This document shows, piece by piece, positions 17,621 through 42,987 of a stretch of 64,000 nucleotides of DNA; the stretch's first letter is position 1; each line of letters starts with the position of its first letter. Position numbers and translations under genes: made by a program. The notes beneath the pieces are model-generated. The model made no database searches. It was given only the letters and a program-made list of their open reading frames with translations, and was not told the origin of the DNA. This DNA is from Hyphomicrobiales bacterium (GTDB taxonomy: Bacteria > Pseudomonadota > Alphaproteobacteria > Rhizobiales > Rhizobiaceae): contig JAFKJY010000054.1 in assembly GCA_017305835.1 (NCBI GenBank), forward strand, positions 1-64,000, in the 5' to 3' direction.

Positions 17621-17656
17621 TTATTTATCGTACACGCCTACAAAGGGAGGATGGTC

Positions 17657-18601: not shown

Positions 18602-18628
18602 ACTCTGCTGATGATGCGCGGAATGCAG

Positions 18629-18656
18629 AGCCGGGCGAGTTCCCCCGCCCGGCTTT
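18629..18656 (+). terminator. intrinsic terminator after the binding-protein gene
   Basis: AGCCGGGCG (18629-18637) pairs perfectly with CGCCCGGCT (18646-18654) across an 8-nt loop, and the descending arm ends in TTT. It lies 28 bp after the stop of the binding-protein gene and before the ATG of the molybdenum-hydroxylase gene. It probably sets a ratio of binding protein to enzyme rather than ending the operon completely. Confidence 0.7.
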
Positions 18657-18688
18657 GCGCCCGCTCCTGGCGTCGGACTGGTGGTTGC

Positions 18689-21600
18689 ATGGCCCCGATC
18701 GGAACCCGCACTCGGCATGTCGACTGGATGGCCATCACCGATGGCTCCGCCGGCTACGCCGCCGATCTGCGCCTGGAAGGCGAACTGGCCGCAGCCGTCC
18801 TGCGCAGCCCGCACCCGCATGCCAGGATCGTCTCGATCGACACGTCGCGGGCCCGCGCGCTGCCGGGCGTCCACGCGGTGCTGACCGCGGCCGACGTGCC
18901 CGAAACCCTCTACCTCGACTACCGCGTCATGGACCGGGACCGGCGGATCCTCGCCGCCGACGTCGTGCGCCATGTCGGCGAGCCGGTGGCGCTGGTCGCG
19001 GCCGACGATGCCGAAACCGCCGCACGGGCGCTCGATCTGATCGACGTCCGCTACAGGCGGCTGCCGGTCGCCGACACGGTTGCCAAGGCGCTGTCGCCCT
19101 CCGCGCCGGCTATCCATCCGCATCCCGAGGAGCGCAACGTCGCGGCGCGTGTCCGGCGCGATCTCGGCGTGGCGCCGCAGGGTGCGCCGGCGTCTGCGCA
19201 CTCGGTACGGGCGTCCTACAGCTCCACGCGGCAGACGCATGCGACGATGGAGCCGCATACGGTCAAAGCGTACTGGAAGGCCGACGAGAAGTGCCTGCAC
19301 GTGTGGGCGCCGTCGCAGAACCCGCGCCTCATCCATCGCGATCTCGCCCAGCTTTTCGGCCTCGACACGTCGGCGGTGCGCCTGCACCAGCTCGCGATCG
19401 GCGGCGATTTCGGCGGGCGCACGCAGATCTCGGGCACGGAGGCGCTGGTCTGTGCGCTCAGCCTCGCGACCGGCCGGCCCGTGGCGCTGCACCAGTCGCG
19501 CGCCGAGGAGTTCGCCTTCACCAAGTGGCGGCTAGCCTGGGACATGGACCTTGCGCTCGGCTGCGACGCCGGCGGCAAGGTCACGACGCTGCAAGCGTCA
19601 TTCGACGTCGACAACGGCGCCTACAACCAGGCCGGGCCGGGCGAGATGGTCTACGGCTCGGTCGCGCTGGGCTCGTCCTATCGCTGGCTCGGCTACCAGG
19701 CCGACGGGCGCTGCGTCTACACCAACAGGGTGCCGGCCTCGTCCTTCCGCGGCGCGGGCGGCTACGCGATCAACTGGGCGCTCGAATGCGCCGTCGACGA
19801 GCTGGCCGAGAAGGCCGGCATCGATCCGATCGACTTCCGGCTGGCCAATGCCGTCGGCGACGAGCACGAGGTGTCGCTGACCGGCTGGGAGATCAAGTCG
19901 TCGGGGCTGCGGCGCTGTCTGCAGGCCGTGCGCGAGGGGATCGACTGGGACGCCAGGCGCCGGCAGGGCGGCAAGGGGCGCGGCGTCGGGGTGGCATGCA
20001 CCATCCACGTCACCGCCCTGTCGCGCGACTATATGCTGCGCTCTTCCTGCGCGCTCGACATAGACGGCCGCGGCCACGTCATCATCCGCTCCGGCTGCGG
20101 CGACGCCGGCACCGGGCAGAAGACGCTGATCTGCCAGACCGTCTCCACGATCCTCGGCGTGCCCCTCGACAGGATCTCGATCGTCACCACCGACACGCTC
20201 GTCACGCCGCACGATGCGGGCGCGGGCGCCTCGCGCGGCAGCTTCGTCGCGGTCAACGCGGCGCGGACGCTGGCGAGCAAGGTCCGCGCCGACCTCTCGG
20301 CGGTCGCGCTTGATCATTTCGGGATCGGGGACGGCGAGCCGGACTGGGCCGACGGCGTCGTGCGCAGCGGCAACCACGTCATGGAGCTGGGCGAGCTCGC
20401 CCTGCTAGCCGGCTCCGCGCAGGGATACTCCGCACAGACGGAATATGTCGGCGCGTCGCACGACCCCGATCCGCGCGGCTACGAGGACATCTCGCCGACC
20501 TATTCCTTCGCCGCGCACGCCGTCGAGGTCGAAGTCGACGAGGCATTGGGCACCGTGAAGGTGCTGAAGGTCGTGGCGGCGCACGATTCCGGCACGATCC
20601 TCAACCCGCTCAGTGCCCGGGGACAGGTCGAGGGCGGCGTCGTCATGGGGCTCGGCGCCGTGCTCGGCGAATCCCTGATCTTCGAGGAGGGGCGGGTCGT
20701 CAATCCGAGCTATGCCGACTACGTGCTGCCGCGTCCCGCCGATGCGCCGCCGATCGAGACGATCTTCGTCGACGTCGCCGACAGCGTCGGCCCGTTCGGA
20801 TCGAAGGGACTGGGCGAGATCCCGCTGATCACGATCGGCCCGGCGGTCACCAACGCCATCGCACATGCGACGGGCCTGCGTCTGCGGACTGCCCCGCACA
20901 CGCCTGACCAGATCGTGACGGCGGCGCGGCGGCGCGACGGCAAATCCCTGCGCGCCGGCTCCATCGCCGCCCGGCCCGACCGCTGGTGGACGGCGGCCGT
21001 GCGCACCGCCTATCCGCGCGGGCTGCACAAGGGCCTGCGGCTGCTTTCGGAACGCGTCGGCCGGCCGCGGCCGGCGGGCCGCATCGAGACGATCCGGCCG
21101 GCGGCCGGGATCGACGAGGCGCTCGATCTTCTGCACGAGGGCGGTGCAGACGCGCCGATCGCCGGCGGCACGGACCTGCTTGCGCTCGAAACGCAGGGCC
21201 TGCCGCTGCCGGGCCGGCTGGTCGACATCGCCGGTCTCGGCGAACTTCGCGACATCGAGACTCGCGACGACGGCTCGCTGCGCATCGGCTCGGCGGTCAC
21301 GCTGGCGGATCTGGCGGAGAGCGCCGCCTGCGATCCGGTGCTGCGCAAGACTGCCGCACTGATCGCGACGCCGCAGATCCGTCAGGCCGCGACCGTCGGC
21401 GGCAATCTGTGCCAGACCAAGCGGTGCTGGTTCTTCCGCAACGGCTTCGATTGCTACAAGCGTGGCGGCGCGACGCGGCCCTGCTATGCGGTGATGGGCG
21501 ACCATCGCTTCTACCATTCGATCCAGGACGCGCACCGCTGCCAGGCGATCACGCCGTCCGACCTCGCGACCACGCTGGTCGCGCTCGACGCGGAGATCGA

Positions 21601-22042
21601 GGTGCGCCGCTCGGGCGGTGTCCGCCGCGTGGCGGCCGAGCATTTCTACGAGGGGCCGGGCGAAACGGGCCTTGCGTCCGGCGAGATCGTCGGCGCGGTG
21701 GAAATCCCCGCACAGGCGCGGCGACGGCGGTCGGCCTACCGCAAGCTGGCGCTCTGGCAGGGTGCCTTCGCCATCGCGACAGCCTGCGTCTCGGCCGAGC
21801 TTTCGGGGGGACGCATTTCCGACCTGCGCGTGGCGCTCGGCGGCGTCGGGCCGGTGCCGGTGCGCGTGCATCGGCTCGAACGCATGCTGCGCGGCCAGCG
21901 TCCCGATCCCACCGCCATCGAGGCGGGCATCGCGGCGTGGATGAAGGGAACGCATCCGCTGCGCGACAACCACTGGAAGGCCTTCGCCACGGCAGATCTG
22001 CTCAGGCGGACGCTGTCCGACGTGCTGGAGCGGCCGTCATGA
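18689..22042 (+). CDS. xanthine dehydrogenase family protein: fused molybdopterin-binding and FAD-binding/[4Fe-4S] subunits
   Basis: A 1117-residue molybdenum hydroxylase subunit made of two subunits that are usually separate. Residues 1-760 are the molybdopterin-binding large subunit: QTHATMEPHTVKAYW, GGDFGGR and, near residue 710, GSKGLGEIPL with the catalytic Glu. Residues 795-1117 are the FAD-binding medium subunit: IAGGTDLLAL, then TVGGNLCQ. An insert in it holds C913, C922, C932 and C951, resembling the [4Fe-4S] loop of E. coli PaoB (YagS) and 4-hydroxybenzoyl-CoA reductase beta. The ATG at 18689 was chosen because the upstream extension runs through the terminator hairpin; ATG 18728 is an alternative. 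The enzyme would hydroxylate an N-heterocycle or oxidise an aldehyde. It sits between the binding protein and the permease of an importer. Confidence 0.88.
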   Translation: MAPIGTRTRHVDWMAITDGSAGYAADLRLEGELAAAVLRSPHPHARIVSIDTSRARALPGVHAVLTAADVPETLYLDYRVMDRDRRILAADVVRHVGEPVALVAADDAETAARALDLIDVRYRRLPVADTVAKALSPSAPAIHPHPEERNVAARVRRDLGVAPQGAPASAHSVRASYSSTRQTHATMEPHTVKAYWKADEKCLHVWAPSQNPRLIHRDLAQLFGLDTSAVRLHQLAIGGDFGGRTQISGTEALVCALSLATGRPVALHQSRAEEFAFTKWRLAWDMDLALGCDAGGKVTTLQASFDVDNGAYNQAGPGEMVYGSVALGSSYRWLGYQADGRCVYTNRVPASSFRGAGGYAINWALECAVDELAEKAGIDPIDFRLANAVGDEHEVSLTGWEIKSSGLRRCLQAVREGIDWDARRRQGGKGRGVGVACTIHVTALSRDYMLRSSCALDIDGRGHVIIRSGCGDAGTGQKTLICQTVSTILGVPLDRISIVTTDTLVTPHDAGAGASRGSFVAVNAARTLASKVRADLSAVALDHFGIGDGEPDWADGVVRSGNHVMELGELALLAGSAQGYSAQTEYVGASHDPDPRGYEDISPTYSFAAHAVEVEVDEALGTVKVLKVVAAHDSGTILNPLSARGQVEGGVVMGLGAVLGESLIFEEGRVVNPSYADYVLPRPADAPPIETIFVDVADSVGPFGSKGLGEIPLITIGPAVTNAIAHATGLRLRTAPHTPDQIVTAARRRDGKSLRAGSIAARPDRWWTAAVRTAYPRGLHKGLRLLSERVGRPRPAGRIETIRPAAGIDEALDLLHEGGADAPIAGGTDLLALETQGLPLPGRLVDIAGLGELRDIETRDDGSLRIGSAVTLADLAESAACDPVLRKTAALIATPQIRQAATVGGNLCQTKRCWFFRNGFDCYKRGGATRPCYAVMGDHRFYHSIQDAHRCQAITPSDLATTLVALDAEIEVRRSGGVRRVAAEHFYEGPGETGLASGEIVGAVEIPAQARRRRSAYRKLALWQGAFAIATACVSAELSGGRISDLRVALGGVGPVPVRVHRLERMLRGQRPDPTAIEAGIAAWMKGTHPLRDNHWKAFATADLLRRTLSDVLERPS

Positions 22043-22551
22043 TGGCGCGGCTGCGGGTGAACGGGCAGGAACACGTCCTCGACCTGCCGGCCGGCGAGCG
22101 GCTGATCGACGTGCTGCGCGATCGGCTGGGGCTGACCGGCACCAAGCAGGGCTGCCGCGCCGGCGAGTGCGGCGCCTGCACCGTGCTGGTCGACGGGCGG
22201 CCGATGCAGGCCTGCATCATGCTCGCCTGCCGCGTGCATGGCGAGGTGCGCACGGTCGAGGGGCTGGGCGAGCGCTTCATGCCGCTGCGGCAGGCCTTTG
22301 CCGACGAAGGCGGCTTCCAGTGCGGCTTCTGCACGCCGGGCCAGCTCATGCGGGCCGCCGCGCTGCTCGCGGAGGCGCCGCTGGAGCGGCTCGGCGACGA
22401 GGCATGGCTGCGGGAGCAGATGAACGGCAACATCTGCCGCTGCACCGGATATTGCGGCATCATCCGTGCGCTGATGAACGAGGACGTGCGGACGCTCGCC
22501 CGCGACCTGCGCGGCGAGCCGGCCGTGACCGAGGGAGGATTTCAGGCTTGA
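22039..22551 (+). CDS. molybdenum hydroxylase small subunit, 2x[2Fe-2S] ferredoxin-like
   Basis: A 170-residue electron-transfer subunit. The N-terminal plant-type ferredoxin domain has cysteines at 39, 44, 47 and 59 (C-x4-C-x2-C-x11-C). The C-terminal helical [2Fe-2S] domain has C95, C98, C133 and C135 (CGFC, then CRC). It passes electrons from the Mo centre to FAD in the large fused subunit encoded just upstream; the genes overlap at ATGA. It overlaps the permease gene by 4 bp at TTGA. The protein is normal in length for the family and lacks an export signal, in contrast to the periplasmic PaoA type. Confidence 0.93.
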   Translation: MMARLRVNGQEHVLDLPAGERLIDVLRDRLGLTGTKQGCRAGECGACTVLVDGRPMQACIMLACRVHGEVRTVEGLGERFMPLRQAFADEGGFQCGFCTPGQLMRAAALLAEAPLERLGDEAWLREQMNGNICRCTGYCGIIRALMNEDVRTLARDLRGEPAVTEGGFQA

Positions 22552-26056: not shown

Positions 26057-26193
26057 GCGCGTCGGGCGCTCGCCGGGCGTCCGATGCGCGGAAAATGACG
26101 TGCCGGATGCAGTCCCGCGCCGGCCCCGAATGCACGCCGGACAGAACCTGCGGAAGAGGCGATCCGAAAGGCGGAAAGGCCATGTTTCAGCGC

Positions 26194-26225
26194 TTGACAC
26201 GACTTTCAAATAGAACCACTGATAG
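26194..26225 (+). promoter_or_regulatory. weak promoter candidate before the XRE-cupin/hydantoinase operon
   Basis: A perfect TTGACA -35 (26194-26199) lies in a locally AT-rich stretch. The best -10 options are imperfect (CTGATA or TGATAG, spacing 19-20). A transcript from here would start before the GGGAGGA site at 26244 and fits the TTG start at 26257. The 200-bp gap after the aminotransferase gene otherwise holds nothing recognisable. Confidence 0.3.
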
Positions 26226-26256
26226 GCAGTTACTGAAATTTCCGGGAGGACGGGAA

Positions 26257-26805
26257 TTGCGTAATCAGGGCCATCTCTTCGGCGACAGGGAACTGCGCCA
26301 GCTCGGCCGCGCCGTGCGCGAGGCGCGCGAGAGGGGAGGCTTCAGCCAGTCCCAGCTCGCCGACGATTCCGGCCTCTCCGCCCGCGCGGTGCGCGAGCTC
26401 GAGGCCGGACGGTCGAGCCCGTCGCTCGCCACGATCGTGGCGATCGTCGATGCGCTTTCGATCACGCTCGACGAGCTGATCGCCGCAGCGCGCGCGCGCC
26501 GGCCGGTGTTCGGCCTGCTGCCGGCGGACGAGGCCGGTCCCTATGATCGCGAGCTGGTCACCGCCATCGAGCAGCCGCGCCTGCGCGTGCGGGTCGTCGA
26601 TGCGGGCTCGGGCGACCCCGTCGCGCTGCCTTCCGGATCCACCTTCGCGCACGTGCTCGGCGGCGCCGTGACGGCGACGCTCGACGGGGAGCAGGTGAAG
26701 CTGCGCCACGGCGACAGCCTGCACTCGCGCCCCGGCGTGCTGACGGATCTCGAGCCCGCGGACGGCCGCGTGCGCATGCTGCTGGTCGAGGCGCCCGGCA
26801 GCTAG
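26257..26805 (+). CDS. XRE family regulator with degenerate cupin domain
   Basis: A 182-residue regulator. The helix-turn-helix spans about residues 10-65 (LGRAVREARERGGFSQSQLA, then LSARAVRELEAGRSSPSLATI) and a cupin-like half lies near residues 110-180 (STFAHVLGGAVTATLDG, RHGDSLHSRPG). The TTG at 26257 was chosen because GGGAGGA lies 7 bp upstream and a TTGACA box lies before it; an ATG at 26181 in the same frame precedes that box. It is the first gene of the hydantoinase island and probably regulates it. It is less similar to the 16706/31078 pair, so it is a different subgroup. Confidence 0.8.
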   Translation: MRNQGHLFGDRELRQLGRAVREARERGGFSQSQLADDSGLSARAVRELEAGRSSPSLATIVAIVDALSITLDELIAAARARRPVFGLLPADEAGPYDRELVTAIEQPRLRVRVVDAGSGDPVALPSGSTFAHVLGGAVTATLDGEQVKLRHGDSLHSRPGVLTDLEPADGRVRMLLVEAPGS

Positions 26806-26860
26806 AGGCCGCGGATGCGGCGAACCTTCCCTGCCGATTGCTGAACAGGAAAAAGCGAGA

Positions 26861-28975
26861 ATGTCCGAAACCACCTACCTTGTTGCGACCGACGTTGGTG
26901 GCACCTGCACCGACACGATCGTCGTGTCGTCGACCGGCGAGATCACGATCGGCAAGGCGCTCTCGACGCCGCCGGACTTCGCGACCGGCGTGCTGAACTC
27001 GATCCGCTCGGCAGCCGACGCGATGCAGCTCGACATGAGCCGGATCCTTGAAAAGACGACGCTTTTCATCCACGGCTCGACCGTCGTCGACAATACGGTG
27101 TTCACCCGCGAGGGCTCGCGCACAGGTCTTGTGGCGACCGAGGGCTTCGAGGACACGCTGCTGGTGACGCGTGGCGCCTATGGCCGCTGGTCGGGCCTCA
27201 CGGAAGAGGGAATCAAGAACCCGGTCAAGACGAGCCGCGCGCCCGCGCTGGTCGATCCGGCGGCGATCGTCGGCGTCAGGGAGCGCATCGACTGCGACGG
27301 CGACGTCGTCCAGGCGCTCGACATGGCCGGCGCGCGCGAGGCCATCCGGCATCTGGTGCAGGACAGGAAGGTCGACGCCATCGCCGTCTCCTTCCTGTGG
27401 TCCTTCTACAATCCGAGCCACGAGCAGGCGATCCGCAAGCTCGTCGAGGAAGTGGCGCCGGGGACCTACGTCACGCTCTCCAGCGACATCGCGCCGGTGC
27501 CGGGCGAGTACGAGCGCACCTCGACGGCGGTCATCAACGCCTATGCCGGCCGGGTCGCGGGCGACTACCTGAAGGAGCTCGGCGATCTCCTGGCGCGCAA
27601 CGGCTATCGCGGCCAGACCATGGTCATGCAGGGCTATGGCGGCCTGCTGCCGGTCGAGGAAGCGGCCGTGCGCGCCGTCGGCATGATCGAATGCGGCCCG
27701 GCCGCCGGCGTCATCGGGGCGAAGTTCCTCGGCGACGCGATGGGCGACCTCGACATCATCGCGGCCGACATGGGCGGCACCACCTTCAAGGTCGGCGTGA
27801 TCCAGAACGGCGAGCTGGAATATGCGCGCGAGCCGATGGTCGACCGCTTCCACTACGTCGCGCCGAAGATCGACGTCGTTTCAATCGGCGCCGGTGGCGG
27901 AAGCATCATCCAGCTCGATCCGAAGACGAAGCTGCCGACGGTCGGGCCGCGCTCGGCCGGCTCGCGGCCGGGGCCGATCTGCTACGGGCTCGGCGGCCAG
28001 GAGCCGACGCTCACCGACGTCATGATGCTCATCGGCTACATGGATTCGGGCCACTTCCTGCGCGGCAGCATGCCGCTCGACAGCGAGAACACGCGGCGCA
28101 TCTTCAAGCAGAAGATCGCCGATCCGCTCGGCACCTCGGTCGAGGATGCCGCGATCGGCATCTACCGTATCGCCTCGGCGCAGATCACCGACCTGATCCG
28201 CAAGATCACCGTCGAGCGCGGGCTCGACCCGCGCGACTTCGTGCTGCACTCCTTCGGCGGCACCTGCGGCATGCTGGCTTCCGCCTTCGGCGAGGAGCTT
28301 TCGGTCCGCCGCATCGTCATCCCCTACACGGCGTCGGTGAACTGCGCCTTCGGCCTGGTGACGGCCGACGTGCGCCACGAATATTCGGTGACGAAGACGC
28401 TGCCGGTCGACGTGCCGGCCAGCGAGATCAATGCCGTATACGCCCCGCTGATGGAGAAGGCGGCGCGCCAGCTCGCATCGGAAGGGTTCGGCAAGGATTC
28501 CATCTCGATGAGCTGGTCGGTCGATTTCCGCTATCGCCGCCAGGTCCACGAGGTGACGACGCCGGTGCGCGTCGAGACGCCGCTGACCGACGATGGGCTG
28601 AAGGCGCTGGTGGCCGATTTCGAGAGCCTCTACGAGCGCAAGTTCGGCCGCGGCTCGGCCTATCGCGAGGCGGGCATCGAGATGACGATGTTCCGGCTCA
28701 CCGCGAGCGGCCTGCTGAAGCGGCCGGACCTGCCGAAGCTCGCCGAAGGCAAGGCCGATGCGAGCGCCGCCCGCATCGGCTCGCGCCCGATCTTCGTCGA
28801 ACGCCGGGGCGCGCTGGCCGAAGGCAACATCTACGATTTCGAGAAGCTGGAGCCCGGCAACCGGCTCAGGGGGCCGGCCGTCATCCATACGCCGATCACC
28901 ACCATCGCCGTGCAGGAGGGCCAGAGCGCCCGAATGGACGGGTTCCGCAACATTGTCCTCGAGATGGAGCGCTAA
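26861..28975 (+). CDS. hyuA: hydantoinase/oxoprolinase family protein, A subunit
   Basis: A 704-residue HyuA/oxoprolinase-type subunit with an actin-like ATP-binding fold. It opens with DVGGTCTDTIV (phosphate loop), has HGSTVVDNTV, the MQGYGGLLPVEEAA segment, MIECGPAAGVIGA, and a second phosphate-loop motif ADMGGTTFKVG. ATP-dependent N-methylhydantoinase, 5-oxoprolinase and the beta subunits of acetone/acetophenone carboxylase all share this fold. Length (about 700) and a neighbouring small zinc protein resemble the carboxylase branch, while the isochorismatase-type amidase downstream fits the hydantoin branch. Substrate therefore open. It is 3 bp upstream of hyuB. Confidence 0.88.
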   Translation: MSETTYLVATDVGGTCTDTIVVSSTGEITIGKALSTPPDFATGVLNSIRSAADAMQLDMSRILEKTTLFIHGSTVVDNTVFTREGSRTGLVATEGFEDTLLVTRGAYGRWSGLTEEGIKNPVKTSRAPALVDPAAIVGVRERIDCDGDVVQALDMAGAREAIRHLVQDRKVDAIAVSFLWSFYNPSHEQAIRKLVEEVAPGTYVTLSSDIAPVPGEYERTSTAVINAYAGRVAGDYLKELGDLLARNGYRGQTMVMQGYGGLLPVEEAAVRAVGMIECGPAAGVIGAKFLGDAMGDLDIIAADMGGTTFKVGVIQNGELEYAREPMVDRFHYVAPKIDVVSIGAGGGSIIQLDPKTKLPTVGPRSAGSRPGPICYGLGGQEPTLTDVMMLIGYMDSGHFLRGSMPLDSENTRRIFKQKIADPLGTSVEDAAIGIYRIASAQITDLIRKITVERGLDPRDFVLHSFGGTCGMLASAFGEELSVRRIVIPYTASVNCAFGLVTADVRHEYSVTKTLPVDVPASEINAVYAPLMEKAARQLASEGFGKDSISMSWSVDFRYRRQVHEVTTPVRVETPLTDDGLKALVADFESLYERKFGRGSAYREAGIEMTMFRLTASGLLKRPDLPKLAEGKADASAARIGSRPIFVERRGALAEGNIYDFEKLEPGNRLRGPAVIHTPITTIAVQEGQSARMDGFRNIVLEMER

Positions 28976-28978
28976 GCC

Positions 28979-30781
28979 ATGGATCCGATGACGTTCTCCA
29001 TTATCCGGCACCGGCTGTTCCGCATCGTCGACGAGGCGGTGATCACGCTCAAGCACGTGTCGGGCAGCGCCATCACCAACGAGGGCCACGACCTGATGGT
29101 CTCGCTCTACGGCGCCGACGGCTCGCTGCTGATGGGCGGTGTCGGCTTCCTGCATCACCTGACCAGCGCTGCGGAGGCCTGCAAGGCGGTCATCCGCAAG
29201 TTCGGCGACCGCATCGGCGAGGGCGACGTCTACCTGCTCAACGATCCCTATACGGCGGCGCTGCATACCTCCGACATCTATCTGGTCGCGCCGATCCACT
29301 ATGACGGCAAGCTGGTCGCCTGGAGCGCCTGCTTCGTCCACGTCTACGACATCGGCGCGATGAACCCCGGCGGCTTCAGCCCGCAGTCGATCGATATCTT
29401 CACCGAGGGCTTCTCCTCGCCCGGCATCAAGATCGTCGACAAGGGCGAGATGGTGCAGGACGTGGTCGACACGATCCTCAACATGGTGCGCTCGCCCGAG
29501 ATGGTGATGCTCGACCTGCGCTCCATGATCGCCTGCAACAACGTGGCGCGCGAGCGCATGCAGTCGCTGATCGCGAAATACGGCCCCGAGACGGTCAACG
29601 AGGCGGGCGCCGAGCTGATCCGCCAGTCGGAGGAGCTGCTGCGGGCGCGCCTACTGGAGCTGCCCGACGGCTCCTGGCAGTCGCGCCAGTATCTCGACGT
29701 GCAGGGCGAGACGGCGACGGTTCGCCTGACCATGACGAAGAAGGGCGACCGGCTGATCTTCGACTTCACCGGATCGAGCCCGCAGAGCCGGCACTCGATC
29801 AACTGCACCTACTGGGCCGCGCTCGGCGGCCTGTTCGCGCCGCTGTTCCCGCTGCTGTGCTACGACATCACCTGGAACGAGGGCGTCATCCGGCTGATCG
29901 AGATGATCGCGCCGGAGGGGTCGGTGGTGAACTGCACGCGGCCGGCGCCGGTTTCGGTCGCCACGGTCGGCGCCATCCAGTCGGTCAACAACGCCGCCTG
30001 CGCGACCATCGGCAAGATGCTGGCGGCGAGCGACAAGTACCGCGAGCAGGCGACGGCGGTCTGGCACGCCAACCACTTCGCCATCTTCAAGTTCGGCCGC
30101 AACCAGAAGGGCGGCCAGTCGATCGGCATCCTGACCGAGACCTTCGCCGGGGCCGGCGGCGCCAGCGCGTTTGCCGACGGCGTCGACATCGGCGGCGAGG
30201 TGCCGAACCCGATCTCGCGCATGGCCAATGTCGAGACGGTCGAGGCGAGCTTCCCGATCCGATACCTCTTCCGCAAGCGCATGGCCGATTCCGGCGGGCC
30301 GGGGCGCTGGCGCGGCGGCACCGGGGGCGAGCTGGCGATCGTGCCGCACAAGGCACCGGACGGCGGGCTCCACTACGTGATTTCCGGCAAGGGCGACCGC
30401 CACCCGATGAGCGACGGCCTGGCCGGCGGCCTGCCCGGCGGCCCGAACGCCTATCTCTGGGCGAAGAGTGGCGAAGCTGCCGCCGCGGGCGACGACGGGA
30501 GGCTGCCCGGCGGCGCGCAGGCCGTGTCGTGGGGCGTGTTCCCGCTGATGGGTGAGGATGCGCTCTATGTCCGCTGGAACGGCGGGGGCGGCTATGGCGA
30601 CCCGCTCGACCGCGATCCCGAGAACGTGGCGAAGGACGTCGTCGGCGCGCTGGTCAGCGCGGATGCGGCGAGGGACATCTACGGCGTCGTGCTGTCGGAA
30701 CAGGGCGTCGTGGATACCGCCGCGACGGACGCGCTGCGCGGCTCGATGAAGGCGGAACGCATGGCTGGGGAGGCCGCGTGA
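28979..30781 (+). CDS. hyuB: hydantoinase B/oxoprolinase family protein
   Basis: A 600-residue HyuB-type subunit, partner of the A subunit immediately upstream. Recognisable blocks are the N-terminal SAITNEGHDLMVSLYG, the metal-site segment YLLNDPYTAALHTSDIYLVAPIH with His residues, the FDFTGSSPQSRHSINC region, the PGRWRGGTGGELAI loop, and a GGGGYGDPLDRDPENVAKDV C-terminus. The complex hydrolyses cyclic amides or carboxylates ketones using ATP. Its length of about 600 is shorter than acetone carboxylase alpha (about 770). The stop overlaps the start of the small zinc-ribbon gene (GTGA). Confidence 0.9.
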   Translation: MDPMTFSIIRHRLFRIVDEAVITLKHVSGSAITNEGHDLMVSLYGADGSLLMGGVGFLHHLTSAAEACKAVIRKFGDRIGEGDVYLLNDPYTAALHTSDIYLVAPIHYDGKLVAWSACFVHVYDIGAMNPGGFSPQSIDIFTEGFSSPGIKIVDKGEMVQDVVDTILNMVRSPEMVMLDLRSMIACNNVARERMQSLIAKYGPETVNEAGAELIRQSEELLRARLLELPDGSWQSRQYLDVQGETATVRLTMTKKGDRLIFDFTGSSPQSRHSINCTYWAALGGLFAPLFPLLCYDITWNEGVIRLIEMIAPEGSVVNCTRPAPVSVATVGAIQSVNNAACATIGKMLAASDKYREQATAVWHANHFAIFKFGRNQKGGQSIGILTETFAGAGGASAFADGVDIGGEVPNPISRMANVETVEASFPIRYLFRKRMADSGGPGRWRGGTGGELAIVPHKAPDGGLHYVISGKGDRHPMSDGLAGGLPGGPNAYLWAKSGEAAAAGDDGRLPGGAQAVSWGVFPLMGEDALYVRWNGGGGYGDPLDRDPENVAKDVVGALVSADAARDIYGVVLSEQGVVDTAATDALRGSMKAERMAGEAA

Positions 30782-31071
30782 TGAAGGAAGTGAGATCCTG
30801 GTCGGCGACGCTGGTGAGCATGCCCGGCAAGTCCGGCCGCGTGATTGCCTGCCGCGCCTGCTCGGCCGAGCTGTGCGGGACCGATGCGTCGTGGAAGGAG
30901 CACGCCGTGCTGCGCGAGAGCCCGCTGCGGGAGGCCGCGGGCGCGACCTACCGCAGCGCCGGCGACGAGGTGCTGCTGCGCCGGTTCTACTGCGGGTCCT
31001 GCGGGGCGGCGCTCGACAGCGAGATCGCGCTGCCGGGCGAGCCCTTCCTGCTCGACCGACTGGCGGAGTAG
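30778..31071 (+). CDS. small zinc-ribbon protein, acetone carboxylase gamma-like
   Basis: A 97-residue protein starting at a GTG that overlaps the hyuB stop; the next codon is an ATG (30781), an equally good start. It has two Cys pairs, C25-x2-C28 and C72-x2-C75, with an extra C33, the spacing of a zinc ribbon. Small gamma subunits with similar Cys pairs accompany HyuA/HyuB-type subunits in acetone carboxylase, where gamma is about 165 residues; this one is shorter. Its overlap with hyuB suggests a third subunit of the same complex. Exact identity is inferred from context. Confidence 0.65.
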   Translation: MMKEVRSWSATLVSMPGKSGRVIACRACSAELCGTDASWKEHAVLRESPLREAAGATYRSAGDEVLLRRFYCGSCGAALDSEIALPGEPFLLDRLAE

Positions 31072-31077
31072 GCGAAC

Positions 31078-31680
31078 GTGCCGCGCAAGGGCAGAACCGG
31101 CACGGCGCGCCAGATCGAGGCGAGCGGCGTCCTCGGCGGTCGGCTGCGCGAGCTGCGGCTAGTGCGCGGCCTGACGATCGCCGGGCTCGCCGCCCGCTCG
31201 CAGGTGCCGGCCAGCACGATCAGCAAGATCGAGAACGGCCTGCTCAATCCGAGCCTGGTCAACGCGATCAACCTCGCGACGGCGCTGGAGGCCAATCTCG
31301 GCTTCCTCGTCGACCAGGCGCGCACGCGCTCGGCCCGCTACGCGATCGTGAGGCGCCACCAGCGCGGCCGCAACGACTTCCCCGAGATGGCGCTCGTGCT
31401 GGAGGACCTGAACAGCGGCTTCGTGCCGGGCGTGCTGGAAAGCCGCATCGGCACGATCAGCCCCGGCGCGCATTCGGGCCTCGAGGCGATGACGCATGCG
31501 GGCGAGGAAGTCGCCCATGTGCTCGCCGGCGCGCTGACCTACGACATCGACGGCGAGTCGATCCTGCTCGGTACCGGCGACACGCTGCACTTCAAATCGG
31601 ACGTGCCGCACCGGTGGATGAACGACAGCGACGGGCCAGTCCAGGTCCTGTGGATATTCTCGGACGGCCTGTCATTCTAA
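31078..31680 (+). CDS. XRE family regulator with cupin domain
   Basis: A 200-residue XRE-cupin regulator with a GTG start 6 bp after the zinc-ribbon gene. Helix-turn-helix near residues 18-75 (LGGRLRELRLVRGLTIAGLA, PASTISKIENGLLNPSL) and cupin near 125-200 (THAGEEVAHVLAGALTYDIDG, then LHFKSDVPHRWMNDS). It is closely related to the regulator at 16706, sharing the recognition helix, the SLVNAINLA linker and the FSDGLSF end. The second regulator of this island, encoded inside it, probably senses the substrate or a pathway intermediate through the cupin. Confidence 0.9.
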   Translation: MPRKGRTGTARQIEASGVLGGRLRELRLVRGLTIAGLAARSQVPASTISKIENGLLNPSLVNAINLATALEANLGFLVDQARTRSARYAIVRRHQRGRNDFPEMALVLEDLNSGFVPGVLESRIGTISPGAHSGLEAMTHAGEEVAHVLAGALTYDIDGESILLGTGDTLHFKSDVPHRWMNDSDGPVQVLWIFSDGLSF

Positions 31681-31699
31681 TTCTGGAAGGAAAAACAAA

Positions 31700-32365
31700 A
31701 TGATAAGCGAGCACATCATAGAGCGCGTGATCAAGCGGCGCGGCAGGCTTCACATCTTCGACACGATCGAGGCGCGGCGCACCGCGCTCGTCGTCATCGA
31801 CATGCAGAAGACGTTCTGCGAGCCGGGCGCGCCGGCCGAGGTCGCCTCCTCGCGCACCATCATCGGCACGATCAACCGGCTGGCCGCGGCGCTGCGCGAG
31901 GCCGGCGGCAAGGTCGTCTGGTGCACGCACGCAAATGTCGGCGTCGACGACACCAGCGACTGGCGCAACTTCTTCGACCATTTCGTCTCTGACGAGCTTC
32001 GCTCGCGCACGATCGAGAGCCTTTCGCCGGGCGGGTCCGGCCAGGATATCTGGCACGAGCTCAAGACGCATCCCGAAGACATCAAGCTGTTCAAGAACCG
32101 CTACAGCGCGCTCATCCCGGGCTCCTCGCAGCTCGAGCGGATCCTGCGCAGCCTGAACATCGACACGCTGCTGATTGCTGGGACGAAGACCAACATCTGC
32201 TGCGAGTCGACCGCCCGCGACGCGATGATGCTGGACTTCAAGGTGGTCATGGTTTCGGACGCAACCGCAGCCCTGTCGCCCGAAGAGCATCGCGCCGCGC
32301 TTGAGAACGTCATCCAGCAGTTCGGTGACGTGATGAGCACCGACGAGGTGATCCGGCTACTCTGA
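31700..32365 (+). CDS. isochorismatase family cysteine hydrolase (possible N-carbamoyl amidase)
   Basis: A 221-residue isochorismatase-fold hydrolase with the full triad: D34 in VVIDMQ, K132 in the LFKNRYSALIPGSS segment, and C167 in TKTNICCESTARDA (C168 adjacent). Cys-containing members are amidohydrolases such as N-carbamoylsarcosine amidase, nicotinamidase and ureidoacrylate hydrolase. Next to HyuA/HyuB this arrangement matches the N-methylhydantoin to N-carbamoylsarcosine to sarcosine route, in which hydantoinase is followed by an isochorismatase-type amidase. It is preceded by GGAAGG and lies 45 bp before the BMP-type binding-protein gene. Function is inferred from context. Confidence 0.82.
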   Translation: MISEHIIERVIKRRGRLHIFDTIEARRTALVVIDMQKTFCEPGAPAEVASSRTIIGTINRLAAALREAGGKVVWCTHANVGVDDTSDWRNFFDHFVSDELRSRTIESLSPGGSGQDIWHELKTHPEDIKLFKNRYSALIPGSSQLERILRSLNIDTLLIAGTKTNICCESTARDAMMLDFKVVMVSDATAALSPEEHRAALENVIQQFGDVMSTDEVIRLL

Positions 32366-32410
32366 ACCGCCATACCGGACACCCGTCATCATGTGAAAAG
32401 GGGAACTTCC

Positions 32411-33367
32411 ATGAAGACATTTCTTGCAGCCGCGGCGCTCGCCGCGGTGATGATCGCCGGAACGGCCCATGCCGCGACCAAGCGCATCGCGCTGGTCCTG
32501 CCCGGGCCGATCACCGACGGCACGTTCAACTCCGCCGCCAACAAGGGCATCGAGGCGGCCAAGAAGAAGTACGACATCGATGTCGTGGTGCGCGAGAACA
32601 CCGACTTCGCGCAGATCGAGGACGTGCTGCGGTCCTATGCCGAGGACGGCTTCGACATGGTGATCGGCCACGGCTTCCAGTTCGCCGAGCCGGTGATGAA
32701 CATCCATGCCGACTATCCCAAGACCTTCTTCGTGGTGAACACGGCGCAGGTCGCGGCGGAGCCCAACGTCGCCTCCTTCGACAACCGCTGGGGCGATGCG
32801 GGCTATCTCGCCGGCGCGGTCGCCGCGCTCTATTCCAAGACCGGCAAGATCGGTCATGTCGGGGCGATCCCCGTGCCGGTCATCGAGCAGTACAATCTCG
32901 GCTTCGAGCGCGGTGCCAAGCGCATGAAGCCCGAGACGCAGGTGCTGTCGGCCTATGTCGGCTCCTTCAGCGACATCGCGCGCGGCGCCGAGATCACGAC
33001 CTCGCAGATCGAGCAGGGCGCCGACGTCGTCACCTCGACCGGCAACGAGAACGTGATCGGCACGATCCAGGCTGCGCAGAAGGCCAAGGTGCTGGCGATC
33101 GGCACGGCCTTCGACAGCGCCGCCATGGCGCCCGAGACGATCATCACGACGGCGCTGATCAACATGGACGTCAACATCGACCTCGCCGTGGGCAAGCTGA
33201 TCGACGGCACGCTGAAGCCGGAGACCTACGTGCTGGGCATCAATGACGGCGGCATCGGGCTGGCGCCCCTGCGGGGCTTCGAGAGCAAGATCTCGGCCGA
33301 GGACAAGGCCAGGATCGACCAGCTCGTCAAGGATCTCGCCGAGGGCAAGATCACGGACCTGCCCTGA
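32411..33367 (+). CDS. BMP family ABC transporter substrate-binding protein
   Basis: A 318-residue basic-membrane-protein (Bmp/Med) family binding protein. A signal peptide covers residues 1-22 (MKTF start, Ala-rich core, ending AHA); the mature part has the IALVLPGPITDGTFN opening, GFDMVIGHGFQFAEPV, the DNRWGDAGYLAGAVAALYSKTGKIG stretch and a GINDGGIGLAPL C-terminal block. The ATG at 32411 has an AAAAGGGGAA site. BMP proteins with RbsA-like two-domain ATPases import purine nucleosides or related N-heterocycles. Here the ligand could be the hydantoin- or ureide-like substrate of the upstream enzymes. Confidence 0.9.
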   Translation: MKTFLAAAALAAVMIAGTAHAATKRIALVLPGPITDGTFNSAANKGIEAAKKKYDIDVVVRENTDFAQIEDVLRSYAEDGFDMVIGHGFQFAEPVMNIHADYPKTFFVVNTAQVAAEPNVASFDNRWGDAGYLAGAVAALYSKTGKIGHVGAIPVPVIEQYNLGFERGAKRMKPETQVLSAYVGSFSDIARGAEITTSQIEQGADVVTSTGNENVIGTIQAAQKAKVLAIGTAFDSAAMAPETIITTALINMDVNIDLAVGKLIDGTLKPETYVLGINDGGIGLAPLRGFESKISAEDKARIDQLVKDLAEGKITDLP

Positions 33368-33373
33368 CCGGCC

Positions 33374-34945
33374 ATGACGAGCGACCCGTCCGAGAGGGTC
33401 GGCTTCGTCGCCCTGCAGGCCGTCACGAAACGGTTCGGCCCGGTCGTGGCCAACCGGTCGGTCGACCTGCAGGTCGGCGCCGGTGAAGTTCTCGCCCTGG
33501 TGGGCGAGAACGGCGCCGGCAAGTCGACCATCGTCAACATGCTGTCCGGCCTGTTCATGCCGGACGAGGGCCGCATCCTGATGGAGGGGCAGCCCGTGCG
33601 GCTGCACTCTCCCTCGGTCGCGGTCCGGGCCGGCATCGGCACCGTGCACCAGCACTACATGCTGGTGCCGACGCTGACCGCGCTCGACAACATCGCCCTG
33701 CAGCAGACCGAGCTCGGCCTCGGCCGGCTCGACCGGGCTGCGCTCGCCGCGCGGGTAAGGCAGGTCGCGGCCGACCTCGGCTTCAGCCTCGACCTCGACA
33801 GCCGCATCGACGGGCTCGACGTCGCCCAGCAGCAGCGCATCGAGATCGTCAAGTCGATGATGCATGCGGTGCGCCTGCTCATCCTCGACGAGCCGACGGC
33901 CGTGCTGGGGGCCGACGACAGGCGCCATCTGTTCGAGGTGATCGCCCGGCTGAAGGGCCAGGGCACGGCCGTCATCCTCATCACCCACAAGCTCGAGGAC
34001 GTCTTCGCCATCGCCGACCGGGCGGTGATCCTGCGGGGAGGGCGGGTCGTGGCGGCCTCGCGCGTCGCCGACCTCACCGCGGCGGCCATCGTCGCCCACA
34101 TGGTCGGGACCGCCGACAGCGGCAAGGCCGAGGCGATCGCCACGGGCTCGCACAGGCGCGGTGGCGCGCCGGCCGGGGCAACCGCAGTTTGCCGCGTCCG
34201 CGGCGTCACGCTGCGGCGTGCCAACGGCTCGGTCGCCGTGTCGGGCCTCGACGTCGACCTGAACGCCGGCGAAATCCTCGCGCTGGCAGGCGTGGAGGGC
34301 AACGGCCAGAGCGAACTCGTCGCCTGCCTCGCCGGCATGAGCCGGCCGTATGGCGGCACCATCGAAAGCCTCGGCGAGCGCTCCGACGGCCGCCGCTGGG
34401 GCGCGGCGCGCCTGCGCGCGCTGGGCCTGCGCCACGTTCCGGAGGACCGGCGCCGCTACGGCATCGTCGGCCCGATGAGCCTCGCCCGCAACTACCTGCT
34501 CGGCAACCAGGATCGTCCCGCCTTCTTCCGCTGGGGGTTGGTCAAAACCCGACGGCTCAGGGACGCAGTCGCCGCGCGGCTTGCCGAATACCAGGTCGTG
34601 GCGCCCGGTCCCGAGACGCCGATGCAGAACCTTTCGGGCGGCAACCAGCAGAAGACGGTGCTCGCGCGCGAGCTCGGCGCCGACACGAGGATCCTCCTCG
34701 CCGCGCACCCCTCGCGCGGCCTCGACATCAAGACGATCCGCTTCGTCCACTCGGTGCTGGAGGAGGCCCGAGCGAAGGGCGCGGCGATCCTGCTGCAATC
34801 CTCCGACATCGACGAGATCATGGCCGTCGCCGACAGGGTGATCGTCTTTTCCGACGGCCGGGTGTTCGGCCCCGCTGCCTGCGACACGCTCAGCCGGGCC
34901 CAGCTCGGCTCATGGATCGCCGGCCATCAGGAGGTCACGCCATGA
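33374..34945 (+). CDS. ABC transporter ATP-binding protein, two nucleotide-binding domains (BMP/nucleoside type)
   Basis: A 523-residue ATPase with two fused nucleotide-binding domains. The N-domain has Walker A GENGAGKST near residue 44, a non-canonical signature around LDVAQQQRIEIVKSMM, and Walker B LLILDEPTAVLGADD. The C-domain has a degenerate Walker A, GVEGNGQSELV, and signature LSGGNQQK near 417 with AAHPSRGLD where most relatives have AAQPTRGLD. This asymmetric layout is usual for BMP-type and ribose-type importers. It overlaps the first permease by 4 bp. Confidence 0.92.
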   Translation: MTSDPSERVGFVALQAVTKRFGPVVANRSVDLQVGAGEVLALVGENGAGKSTIVNMLSGLFMPDEGRILMEGQPVRLHSPSVAVRAGIGTVHQHYMLVPTLTALDNIALQQTELGLGRLDRAALAARVRQVAADLGFSLDLDSRIDGLDVAQQQRIEIVKSMMHAVRLLILDEPTAVLGADDRRHLFEVIARLKGQGTAVILITHKLEDVFAIADRAVILRGGRVVAASRVADLTAAAIVAHMVGTADSGKAEAIATGSHRRGGAPAGATAVCRVRGVTLRRANGSVAVSGLDVDLNAGEILALAGVEGNGQSELVACLAGMSRPYGGTIESLGERSDGRRWGAARLRALGLRHVPEDRRRYGIVGPMSLARNYLLGNQDRPAFFRWGLVKTRRLRDAVAARLAEYQVVAPGPETPMQNLSGGNQQKTVLARELGADTRILLAAHPSRGLDIKTIRFVHSVLEEARAKGAAILLQSSDIDEIMAVADRVIVFSDGRVFGPAACDTLSRAQLGSWIAGHQEVTP

Positions 34946-35964
34946 CGCGCCTGAATCGACCAGAGGTTTACGGGATCGTCTTCGTTGTGGCCCTCGTGGT
35001 GGGCGCCATCCTCGTTGCCGGCGCAAACCCGTTCGAGGTGGCGCGGGCCGCCGTGCAGCGTGCGCTGTTCACGCGGGCAGGCTTTCTGGAAGCGCTGCTG
35101 CGCACCGTTCCGCTGACGATCATGGGGCTGGGCATCGCGCTCTCGTTCCGCGCCGGCGTCTTCAACATCGGCATGGACGGGCAACTGATCGCCGGCAGCG
35201 CGCTGGCCGTGGCGCTGGCGCCGTGGCTGCCGGGCGGCGCGGCCGGCATCGCGCTCTTCCTCGCGCTCGGCATTGCCGGCGGCGCGGCGTGGGGCGGCAT
35301 CGCCGGCCTCATCAAGGCGCGGCTGGGCGGCAACGAGATCATCACCACCATCATGCTCACCTATGTCGCCACGCAGCTCCTGTCGTGGCTGGTGCGCGGG
35401 CCGATGCAGGAGAAGATGCGGATCATTCCGCGCTCAGATCCGATCGACGCCGCGCTGCGCCTGCCGGTGATCGTCGAGGGGACGCGCATCCATGCCGGCT
35501 TCCTCGTCGCCGTGCTCGCCGTCGTCGCGACCGCCTTCGTCGTCCGGCGCGGCCGCTACGGCTTCAAGCTCGACGTGGTCGGCCAGAACGCGAGCGCGGC
35601 CGCCTATGCCGGCATGAACCCGGCCGCGATCGCGGGAATGGTGCTGGCCGTCTCGGGCGGCTTCGCCGGCCTCGCCGGCGCCGTCGAGATCTCCGGCGTC
35701 TACGGCCGCCTTCAGGAAGGGTTCGCGCCCGGTTTCGGCATCAGCGCCATCGCGGTGGCGCTGGTCGTGCGCCTCAACCCGTGGCTGGTGCCGGTCTCGG
35801 CGCTCGGCTTTTCGCTCCTCTATGCCGGGCTGGGTTCTGTGGCGCAGAAGGCGCTGGTGCCGTTCCCGCTGATCAACATCATCGAGGGCGCCGTGGTGTT
35901 CCTCTTCCTCGCCGCGTCGGTGATGCCGGCGCGCGTGCCCGCCGGAGCGAAATCGGATGGATGA
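34942..35964 (+). CDS. ABC transporter permease, BMP/nucleoside type (first)
   Basis: A 340-residue permease of the YufP/NupP type. A first hydrophobic segment follows an N-terminal Arg/Asn-rich stretch. Family blocks are LGIALSFRAGVFNIGMDGQLIAG, the GLIKARLGGNEIITTIMLTYVA segment and GLAGAVEISGVYGRLQEGF. A CAGGAGG site precedes the ATG, which overlaps the ATPase stop (ATGA). It overlaps the second permease gene by 8 bp. Confidence 0.9.
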   Translation: MTRLNRPEVYGIVFVVALVVGAILVAGANPFEVARAAVQRALFTRAGFLEALLRTVPLTIMGLGIALSFRAGVFNIGMDGQLIAGSALAVALAPWLPGGAAGIALFLALGIAGGAAWGGIAGLIKARLGGNEIITTIMLTYVATQLLSWLVRGPMQEKMRIIPRSDPIDAALRLPVIVEGTRIHAGFLVAVLAVVATAFVVRRGRYGFKLDVVGQNASAAAYAGMNPAAIAGMVLAVSGGFAGLAGAVEISGVYGRLQEGFAPGFGISAIAVALVVRLNPWLVPVSALGFSLLYAGLGSVAQKALVPFPLINIIEGAVVFLFLAASVMPARVPAGAKSDG

Positions 35965-36886
35965 GATCCTGTTCGTGTCGGCGGTGCTGGCCGCCGGCAT
36001 CCGCCTCGCCACGCCGATCATGCTCGCCGCCCTCGGCGAGACGCTCGGCCAGCGCTCCGGCGTCATCAATGTCGGCATCGAGGGCATCATGCTCGTCGGC
36101 GCCTTCGTGGCGGTGCTGGGCGCGGTCGAGACCGGCAGCCCGTGGGCCGGGCTCGCGCTCGCCATGCTGGCGGGGGCGGCGATGGGCGCGATCCACGCCT
36201 ATTTCTCGGTGGTGCTGAAGGCCGAGCAGATCGTCGCCGGCATCGCGCTCCTGTTCCTCGGCATCGGTCTGTCGGGCTACGGCTACCGCCTGACGCTGGG
36301 CGCGTCGGGCACGGCTGCCGCCATCCCCGGCTTTCGTCCGCTGGACGTGCTCGGCCTCGCCGGCGTCCCGGGGATCGGCCCCATCCTGTTCGGTCAGCAG
36401 GCGCTGGTCTACCTGACCTTCGCGGCGGCGATCGCGATGGCGTGGATGTTTTCCTCGACACGGCTGGGCGTCATCGTCAAGGCGGTCGGCGAATATCCGG
36501 CCGCCGCGGCGTCGGCGGGCATCGGCGTCGACCGTGTGCGCTTCGCCTGCGTATCGGTGGGCGGCGCCCTGGCCGGCGCCGGCGGCGCCTTCCTGTCGAT
36601 CGCCCATCTGTGGGGCTTCGTGGAAGGCATGACGGCGGGCCGCGGCTTCCTCGCGATCGCCTGCGTCGTGCTCGCCCGCTGGAGCCCGCTCGCAGCGATC
36701 GCGGTCGCGCTGCTGTTCGGCATCGCGGACGCCCTGCAAATCCGCGTCCAGTCGATGATGCCGGGCGTCCCCTACCAGTTCTTCGTCATCGCGCCCTATC
36801 TGGTCGCCATCGCGGCCGTGGGGATCGGCAGCCGCACTGCCATGCCGGCCGCACTCGGCAAGCCGTTCCGTCCGGGCGGCCGCTGA
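35957..36886 (+). CDS. ABC transporter permease, BMP/nucleoside type (second)
   Basis: A 309-residue permease of the YufQ/NupQ type. Blocks include LAALGETLGQRSGVINVGIEGIM, a VLKAEQIVAGIALLFLGIGLS segment and AGGAFLSIAHLWGFVEGMTAGRG. It is the last gene of the hydantoinase/importer island and converges on the antiporter genes, with only 30 bp between stops. A CCGGT/ACCGG dyad near 36908-36923 is the only candidate terminator seen in that gap and it is weak. Confidence 0.9.
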   Translation: MDEILFVSAVLAAGIRLATPIMLAALGETLGQRSGVINVGIEGIMLVGAFVAVLGAVETGSPWAGLALAMLAGAAMGAIHAYFSVVLKAEQIVAGIALLFLGIGLSGYGYRLTLGASGTAAAIPGFRPLDVLGLAGVPGIGPILFGQQALVYLTFAAAIAMAWMFSSTRLGVIVKAVGEYPAAAASAGIGVDRVRFACVSVGGALAGAGGAFLSIAHLWGFVEGMTAGRGFLAIACVVLARWSPLAAIAVALLFGIADALQIRVQSMMPGVPYQFFVIAPYLVAIAAVGIGSRTAMPAALGKPFRPGGR

Positions 36887-36916: not shown

Positions 36917-37318
36917 TCACCGGCCGCCGTCGACGGCTCGGTCCTGCTCCGCCTTGAGCGCGCCCGCGCGCCGGGCCGGGTGCGCAGGCACGTTGCCGCT
37001 TCCCTCGGCCCGATCGCGATACAGCGCCGCGCGGGCGAGCAGCATCAGCGTCACCGGCGTCGTGACCGTGATAAAGACGCCGATCAGGATTTCGTGCACG
37101 ACCGGGCGCGAGCCGAGGACCGAGAAGCAGATGATCGAAGCGAGCACGATCGAGCCCGTGCCCCAGCTCGTGCCGAGCGTGGGCGCGTGCACGCGCTCGA
37201 AGAAGGTGCGGAAGCGCAGGGTGCCGATCGCGCCGGCGAGCGCGAGCGCGGCCCCGACGAGGACGAGGGCGGCCGTCAGCAACGCCGCCCAGCCGGGCAG
37301 GTCCGCGGCGTGGGTCAT
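36917..37318 (-). CDS. mrpG: Na+/H+ antiporter subunit G (Mrp/Mnh/Pha)
   Basis: A 133-residue small membrane subunit with three hydrophobic segments (near residues 10-30, 43-65 and 70-90) and the MnhG/PhaG signature GAIGTLRFRTFFERVHAPTLG, followed by a charged C-terminal tail rich in Arg. It is the last gene of the minus-strand antiporter operon and overlaps mrpF by 4 bp. Mrp complexes export Na+ or K+ in exchange for H+ and are needed for salt and alkaline-pH tolerance. Confidence 0.92.
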   Translation of the reverse strand: MTHAADLPGWAALLTAALVLVGAALALAGAIGTLRFRTFFERVHAPTLGTSWGTGSIVLASIICFSVLGSRPVVHEILIGVFITVTTPVTLMLLARAALYRDRAEGSGNVPAHPARRAGALKAEQDRAVDGGR

Positions 37319-37599
37319 TCGATGACCTCCCCGCGCATCAGGAACTTCGCCAGCGCGACGCTGGAGACGAAGCCCAGCACGGCGATGATCAGGGCCGCCT
37401 CGAAATAGATCTGGCTTCCGGTGCGGATGCCGACGGTCAGCACCAGCAGCATGGCGCAGACATAGATCGCGTCGAGGCAGAGCACCCGGTCCTGCGCGCG
37501 CGGGCCGCGGATGAGGCGGTAGGTGTAGCAGCCCATAGCCACCACGAGCATCGTCTGGGCGATCGTCACGGACCACAGCAGGACGTCGGCGGCGGTCAT
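37315..37599 (-). CDS. mrpF: Na+/H+ antiporter subunit F
   Basis: A 94-residue subunit with three transmembrane helices and the MrpF/MnhF block YRLIRGPRAQDRVLCLDAIY. The ATG at 37599 gives the standard family length and overlaps mrpE by 4 bp; the long open frame upstream is the overlapped reading of mrpE. The product is a small structural subunit of the antiporter complex. Confidence 0.92.
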   Translation of the reverse strand: MTAADVLLWSVTIAQTMLVVAMGCYTYRLIRGPRAQDRVLCLDAIYVCAMLLVLTVGIRTGSQIYFEAALIIAVLGFVSSVALAKFLMRGEVIE

Positions 37600-42956: not shown

Positions 42957-42987
42957 CACTCTCCTTGCGATCGGGCGAATCGTTCGA

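Follow-up and report, generated by a model that had tools for sequence, protein, structure and literature searches.

A structural study published in 2017 recognised three branches of HyuA/HyuB-type enzymes and stated that the gamma subunit is absent from any complex of the hydantoinase (Hyd) branch (PMC5214803). In acetone carboxylase (Acx) gamma binds Zn via Cys74/76/124/127 (PMC5543143), the cysteines of gamma in acetophenone carboxylase (Apc) are Cys22/25/75/78, and in the known enzymes this subunit is tightly bound to the metal subunit at a distance from the active sites and is presumed to be structural (PMC5214803). Here we describe a locus of a Hyphomicrobiales bacterium (assembly GCA_017305835.1, contig JAFKJY010000054.1, positions 1 to 64,000; this whole stretch of 64,000 nucleotides is referred to as the window) in which genes for HyuA-like and HyuB-like subunits are followed by those of a gamma-like protein and an isochorismatase-fold hydrolase. 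The clade formed by this locus and its orthologs fits none of the three branches and so represents a fourth, uncharacterised arrangement. We give an even chance to the reading that HyuA, HyuB and gamma form one ATP-dependent complex, (HyuA-HyuB-gamma)n, which acts by hydrolysis when the cell breaks down an N-heterocyclic compound that it has imported.

A gamma subunit linked to HyuB

The HyuA-like subunit, with ASKHA-type ATP binding (704 aa, 26861..28975, PF05378/PF01968/PF19278), and the HyuB-like subunit with the metal site (600 aa, 28979..30781, PF02538 at 9.9e-124) are encoded 3 bp apart. The HyuB stop overlaps the gamma start in a TGATG, so that gamma (30778 or 30781..31071) is either 96 aa (ATG 30781) or 97 aa (GTG 30778) long. 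According to the open reading frame (ORF) list, HyuA, HyuB, gamma, a regulator, the isochorismatase, a BMP-family protein and an ABC importer make up one run on the + strand with intergenic gaps of 27 bp at most. The original prediction, made from the DNA letters, had placed HyuA, HyuB, a small Cys4 protein, an isochorismatase and an importer here, and all of them are found in this tight run; the Cys4 zinc-ribbon protein is likewise present, its predicted 97 residues holding for the GTG start and 96 for the ATG start.

The small protein matches the Pfam profile PF08882 (Acetone_carb_G) with 31.7 bits, the cut-off being 21, and a single-sequence search against solved structures gave weak matches (E 0.04-1.5). 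Both CxxC pairs (C25, C28, C72 and C75) are invariant in an alignment of 35 orthologs, which also holds a WK motif. The AlphaFold model of gamma (pLDDT 88) retrieved Apc gamma (5l9w_C, Z 11.0) and Acx gamma (Z 10.4-10.6) in a fold search, the next match being at 3.8, and all five chains found by Foldseek at E < 0.001 were Acx or Apc gammas. Yippee/cereblon-like fold matches (Z 3-4) were too weak and have not been taken as an indication of function. Profile and modelled fold identify the Cys4 protein of the window as a true homolog of the gamma subunit found in acetone/acetophenone carboxylase, which bears out the resemblance to acetone carboxylase suspected beforehand.

A scan of 84,980 genomes yielded 51 orthologous loci, whose HyuB proteins share 68-84% identity with that of the window. 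Gamma lies 3' of HyuB in all 48 loci that have sequence past the end of HyuB (47 loci plus L073, where gamma is cut by an assembly gap; the other three contigs stop inside HyuB). The order HyuA-HyuB-gamma-isochorismatase was found again in ~45 orthologous loci of other bacteria, a recurrence that makes the arrangement more than chance. In five gammaproteobacterial loci (L055, L056, L057, L059 and L060) a single reading frame encodes HyuB with gamma at its C-terminus, the predicted model of this fusion having a pTM of 0.86, and the nearest archaeal relative, the HyuB of a Halorientalis plasmid (48% identity), is likewise fused to gamma. The fusions provide strong, sequence-derived evidence for a physical association, and taken together with the linkage in 48/48 loci they indicate that gamma belongs to the complex, as the original prediction had suggested. 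Since the window genome has eight PF02538 genes and a single PF08882 gene, gamma goes with the window HyuB and not with its paralogs. A phylum-wide search with PF08882 returned mainly Acx/Apc-type gammas and was for that reason not used for frequency.

Phylogenetic position and distribution

In a HyuA tree of 47 sequences the sampled Hyd proteins, fused ones included (own-genome paralogs, CapA of caprolactamase and N-methylhydantoinase 7hk5), closed at 100/100, and the HyuA-type subunits of Acx and Apc closed at 99/97 without the window clade, which itself closed at 100/100 outside both branches. Other gamma-bearing HyuAs grouped with the window clade at 86/79, although a single clade for them was not established. 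A reduced HyuA tree kept all three closed groups and the HyuB tree agreed, with the Hyd branch closed at 100 (quick method only). The CapAB and N-methylhydantoinase references were copied from phmmer alignments, their unaligned ends missing, and the references included no IaaCE (an indoleacetate enzyme). The phylogeny proposed as a check in the original prediction has given no clustering with the sampled Hyd proteins, among which there was no proven 5-oxoprolinase. The best named NCBIfam match for both HyuA and HyuB was caprolactamase, far below the cut-off.

Among 385 genomes of the same class, 10 beyond the window's own have orthologs at 68-77%, followed by a clean drop to 40% or less. The clade also has members in Bacillus (L039), in an actinobacterial metagenome-assembled genome (L051) and in beta- and gammaproteobacteria, a spread that points to horizontal transfer. 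The HyuA of the Bacillus (Bacillota) locus was the nearest neighbour of the alphaproteobacterial HyuA of the window in the 47-sequence tree (100/99), a placement that suggests transfer across phyla. In Pusillimonas and relatives (L052, L053, L062, L065, L074 and L049; Alcaligenaceae/Burkholderiaceae, identities read from the sequences) the HyuA-HyuB-gamma(-isochorismatase-BMP) cluster is located between rpoC and rpsL/rpsG/fusA, L049 and L074 showing the rpsL side only. The rpoC-rpsL region is an unusual place for a catabolic operon to have been inserted.

Conserved residues of HyuA and HyuB

The ATP motifs of HyuA (D11, T15, D18, D303, T307 and GxxPGP) are kept in nearly all of 45 aligned sequences. 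The metal tetrad of HyuB (D38, H96, D99 and H121) is invariant in 48/48 and equivalent, in the alignment, to the metal residues D41/H99/D102/H124 of CapB (PMC8453981). By these motifs, the Asp/Glu-His-Asp-His tetrad and the modelled fold, the proteins are members of the hydantoinase/ketone carboxylase superfamily. One HyuA stretch, corresponding to the part of Apc that runs into the helix at the substrate site, bears on the type of reaction. It reads HG[ST]T (HGST) in the window clade, with H71 in 45/45 sequences, and HGTT in most hydantoinases, while the sampled Acx/Apc have YSGT, YSTT, YATT or FSNT. This motif and the Asp metal ligand favour hydrolysis; D124 of HyuB is also hydantoinase-type. 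The positions lining the CapB pocket are occupied in HyuB by polar residues (H59, H366, T388 and E407, invariant in 48/48), unlike CapB, Acx and Apc, as far as can be told from alignment at 24-30% identity as opposed to a solved structure. Halorientalis HyuB has these four in common with the clade, and K310 too, while the other gamma-bearing sets sampled do not. With the HyuB-gamma model as query, the fold search could not tell hydrolases from carboxylases, as Apc beta, CapB, Acx alpha and N-methylhydantoinase were all matched at Z 26-31.

Amidase partner, importer and neighbouring enzymes

The fourth recurrent component is an isochorismatase-fold cysteine hydrolase of amidase type (221 aa, 31700..32365, PF00857 at 1.8e-44). 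A gene of this family is present in 47/48 loci, close and homologous in most; the exceptions are Bacillus L039 (distant, 27%), L062 (~5 kb off) and L036 (missing). At least 97% of the 48 sequences retain D34, K132 and C167/C168, and the PF00857 match with its Asp-Lys-Cys triad assigns the protein, at the level of sequence, to the isochorismatase-fold cysteine hydrolases. Its solved relatives in phmmer were 3irv (87 bits), RutB (68), YecD (61) and the N-carbamoylsarcosine amidohydrolase 1nba (50). Downstream lie a BMP-family (PnrA-like) substrate-binding protein (32393..33367, PF02608 at 2.6e-54), among whose relatives of known structure are the atrazine periplasmic binding protein 6pi5 and Bmp proteins, an importer ATPase with two ABC domains (33374..34945, an ORF kept downstream of BMP in orthologous loci) and two permeases (~34942..35964 and 35957..36886, ORFs with homologs at the same position in orthologous loci). 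This importer occurs in about half of the loci and is replaced by other importers elsewhere.

A molybdenum hydroxylase (only its FAD subunit in L046) appears in 11/51 loci, with ~2.9 expected from ~3.3 MoCoBD_1 genes/Mb in the system-carrying genomes over the 0.88 Mb searched (Poisson p 2e-4 for the 11 loci). In the window this probable pathway partner has fused Mo- and FAD-binding domains (1143 aa, 18611..22042, + strand, PF02738/PF20256/PF01315/PF00941/PF03450), followed by its [2Fe-2S] subunit (22045..22551, +, PF01799/PF00111) and preceded by a family-3 solute-binding protein (17651..18601, +, PF00497), probably of the same catabolic island. Homologs of all three genes stand immediately before HyuA in Mesorhizobium soli (L043), with 79% identity for the Mo/FAD chain, 82% for the 2Fe-2S subunit and 71% for the binding protein. 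In this strain, JCM 19897, the genes for the molybdenum hydroxylase, HyuA-HyuB-gamma, the isochorismatase and the BMP importer form one contiguous stretch. The layout of the window enzyme (18611-22551), with Mo- and FAD-binding domains in one chain and a separate 2Fe-2S subunit, is the same in L043 (79%) and L026 (44%). Between the molybdenum hydroxylase and HyuA the window has amino-acid ABC genes, a MarR gene and an aminotransferase gene, which are not conserved beside HyuA elsewhere and have been left out of the unit.

Genes for coenzyme A (CoA) chemistry also recur, namely an enoyl-CoA hydratase in one operon type and benzoate-CoA-ligase-like genes in some operons. On the Halorientalis marina plasmid (L160, 7870-12139) HyuA and the HyuB-gamma fusion have as neighbours genes for acyl-CoA ligase, enoyl-CoA hydratase, MaoC and SDR proteins. 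The Pfam tallies of neighbour genes cover the top families among mechanically picked ORFs and serve as leads only.

Proposed function and alternatives

What the sequences and the predicted models show is the homology and fold of gamma, its constant linkage and its fusion to HyuB, the ATP and metal motifs, the linkage with the isochorismatase and the separate phylogenetic position. The polar pocket, BMP importer, molybdenum hydroxylase and cysteine amidase fit the catabolism of an N-heterocycle. In such a pathway the BMP-type importer would take up a planar N-heterocycle and the molybdenum hydroxylase would oxidise the ring carbon beside N, so that a lactam, imide or cyclic ureide is formed. 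By homology, HyuA with ATP may then phosphorylate the amide carbonyl, possibly with the help of bicarbonate, for which caprolactamase is the precedent. The activated intermediate would be handed on to the metal site of HyuB (D38/H96/D99/H121) for ring opening by water. Gamma would be a structural zinc element on the C-terminal side of HyuB. The open-chain amide or ureide would be cleaved by the isochorismatase-fold cysteine hydrolase, and the resulting acid might enter CoA chemistry where ligase and hydratase are present.

Several observations weigh against this hydrolytic pathway. The gamma-bearing enzymes characterised so far are carboxylases only (PMC5214803), E97 of HyuA is carboxylase-type, and the pocket positions carry the low identity of their alignment. 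An approximately unbiased (AU) test rejected neither joining the window clade to the Hyd side nor joining it to the carboxylase side (p 0.37 each). The excess of molybdenum hydroxylases becomes weaker when collapsed to ~7 independent lineages (p ~0.03), and most loci have no such gene. Acyl-CoA ligases are found in 14 loci of the window clade (as a raw count), and the nearest relative outside the clade, that of Halorientalis L160, has no isochorismatase nearby but does have CoA-enzyme genes.

Gamma and the neighbouring CoA-enzyme genes leave room for carboxylation. The alternative that survives best, possible though rather unlikely in our estimation, is an ATP-dependent enzyme that carboxylates an N-heterocycle or ketone-like intermediate without biotin. 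HyuA would phosphorylate substrate and bicarbonate and HyuB would join them, with gamma stabilising HyuB as in acetone/acetophenone carboxylase, an acyl-CoA ligase activating the product acid and the isochorismatase removing an amide elsewhere in the pathway. The restriction of gamma to known carboxylases, E97 and the acyl-CoA ligases and enoyl-CoA hydratases that recur in the operons and around gamma-bearing relatives would all be accounted for; the missing alpha-prime and epsilon subunits of Apc, the Asp that HyuB retains at the position of Acx Glu89, the hydantoinase-type HG[ST]T motif and the constant amidase partner would not. The choice between a cyclic-amide hydrolase with an unusual third subunit and a carboxylase of an N-heterocycle, as the original prediction had framed it, was a fair one given the gamma homology and the HyuB fusion.

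We regard as improbable a third scheme, the opening of a lactam as a CoA thioester in the manner proposed for IaaCE (PMC8453981), with an acyl-CoA ligase acting first, the molybdenum hydroxylase second and HyuA, HyuB and gamma opening the lactam. This precedent and the benzoate-CoA-ligase-like and enoyl-CoA hydratase genes of some operons speak for it, but IaaCE is reported to belong to the Hyd branch and to have two subunits and no gamma (PMC5214803). The ligase genes are moreover not constant and the BMP importer suggests an N-heterocycle over an aryl acid. Least of all do we expect the pathway named at the outset, from N-methylhydantoin (or a creatinine-derived hydantoin) through N-carbamoylsarcosine to sarcosine, with the isochorismatase as N-carbamoylsarcosine amidohydrolase: HyuAB does adjoin an isochorismatase-fold amidase with a 50-bit match to 1nba, but this protein is nearer to 3irv, RutB and YecD, HyuA/B fall outside the branch with 7hk5, molybdenum hydroxylases and acyl-CoA ligases are what recurs in the neighbourhood, and to our knowledge neither gamma nor a molybdenum-hydroxylase partner is part of the known route.

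As a widespread group that combines gamma with hydantoinase-type motifs and has a constant amidase partner, the window clade breaks the rule that gamma is absent from Hyd complexes, and makes it testable whether gamma is a mark of carboxylation or a stabiliser of HyuB only. The clade also points to an unmapped bacterial route of N-heterocycle catabolism. In database records, small proteins of this kind are called 'acetone carboxylase subunit gamma', a name that may mislead annotation.

Regulators and flanking genes

Upstream of HyuA there is a probable HTH (XRE)-cupin transcriptional regulator (~26182..26805, +, PF01381 at 1.8e-13 with cupin matches; the ATG start at 26182 is deduced from the reading frame). 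A second HTH-cupin regulator, of PuuR-like architecture, separates gamma from the isochorismatase (31078..31680, PF07883 at 1.6e-17, HTH_3 at 5.5e-10). Neither regulator figured in the original prediction. After the operon, on the opposite strand, genes resembling subunits of a Mrp-type Na+/H+ antiporter were recognised by eye only (36917-43031).

Comparison with known systems

A literature search that left most subscription journals outside its scope gave nothing usable on a gamma-bearing hydantoinase, on HyuAB with a molybdenum hydroxylase and an isochorismatase, or on isonicotinate/citrazinate hydrolysis. Among the closest sets known from sequence are other gamma-bearing HyuA/HyuB pairs (Niveispirillum, haloarchaea and others), in which gamma is mostly a C-terminal HyuB fusion and most have an HG/HA-type motif. 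They differ from the window clade in their 33-48% identity, the absence of a constant isochorismatase and, except for Halorientalis, other pocket residues, and are also uncharacterised. Further loci (L084, L086, L087, L141 and L143-L148) hold diverse uncharacterised sets of HyuA with a HyuB-gamma fusion, the HyuB being ~33-40% identical to that of the window.

The N-methylhydantoin and N-carbamoylsarcosine amidohydrolases provide the same pairing of an ATP-dependent HyuA/B-type enzyme with an isochorismatase-fold amidase, but have no gamma, and neither the amidase nor the HyuA/B is close to those of the window. Caprolactamase CapAB of Pseudomonas jessenii (6yra; Hyd branch) resembles the window proteins in the size and fold of its two large subunits, in the ASKHA ATP motifs, in the Asp-His-Asp-His metal site and in a Hyd-type motif region, and was the best match in phmmer as well as NCBIfam. 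It lacks gamma, which is always present in the window clade, and belongs to another branch of the tree; its pocket is hydrophobic with a vicinal disulfide (PMC8453981), whereas the corresponding positions of the window HyuB are polar. As a whole, the Hyd branch consists of two-subunit enzymes without gamma (PMC5214803) and closes without the window clade, in which gamma is found in 48/48 loci; on both counts the clade falls outside it.

The carboxylases resemble the locus from the other side. AcxABC of Xanthobacter autotrophicus (5m45/5svb/5svc) is an alpha-beta-gamma set with a Cys4 gamma directly 3' of the metal subunit, and its gamma matches the fold of the window gamma (Z 10.4-10.6). It differs in the Glu89 of its Mn site, in the YSGT motif of its ATP subunit and in its longer subunits, while the window clade has Asp38, HG[ST]T, a shorter HyuB and gamma, and a place outside the Acx/Apc branch. 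Apc of Aromatoleum aromaticum (5l9w) has a gamma of similar size that gave the best fold match (Z 11.0), its beta subunit matched the HyuB-gamma model at Z 30.9, and the RERID..G segment is alike. Apc differs in having alpha-prime and epsilon subunits and the gene order alpha'-gamma-alpha-beta (alpha-prime and this order are both seen in the sampled Apc-type loci), whereas the window operon has one HyuA-type gene, the three genes HyuA-HyuB-gamma and an amidase partner.

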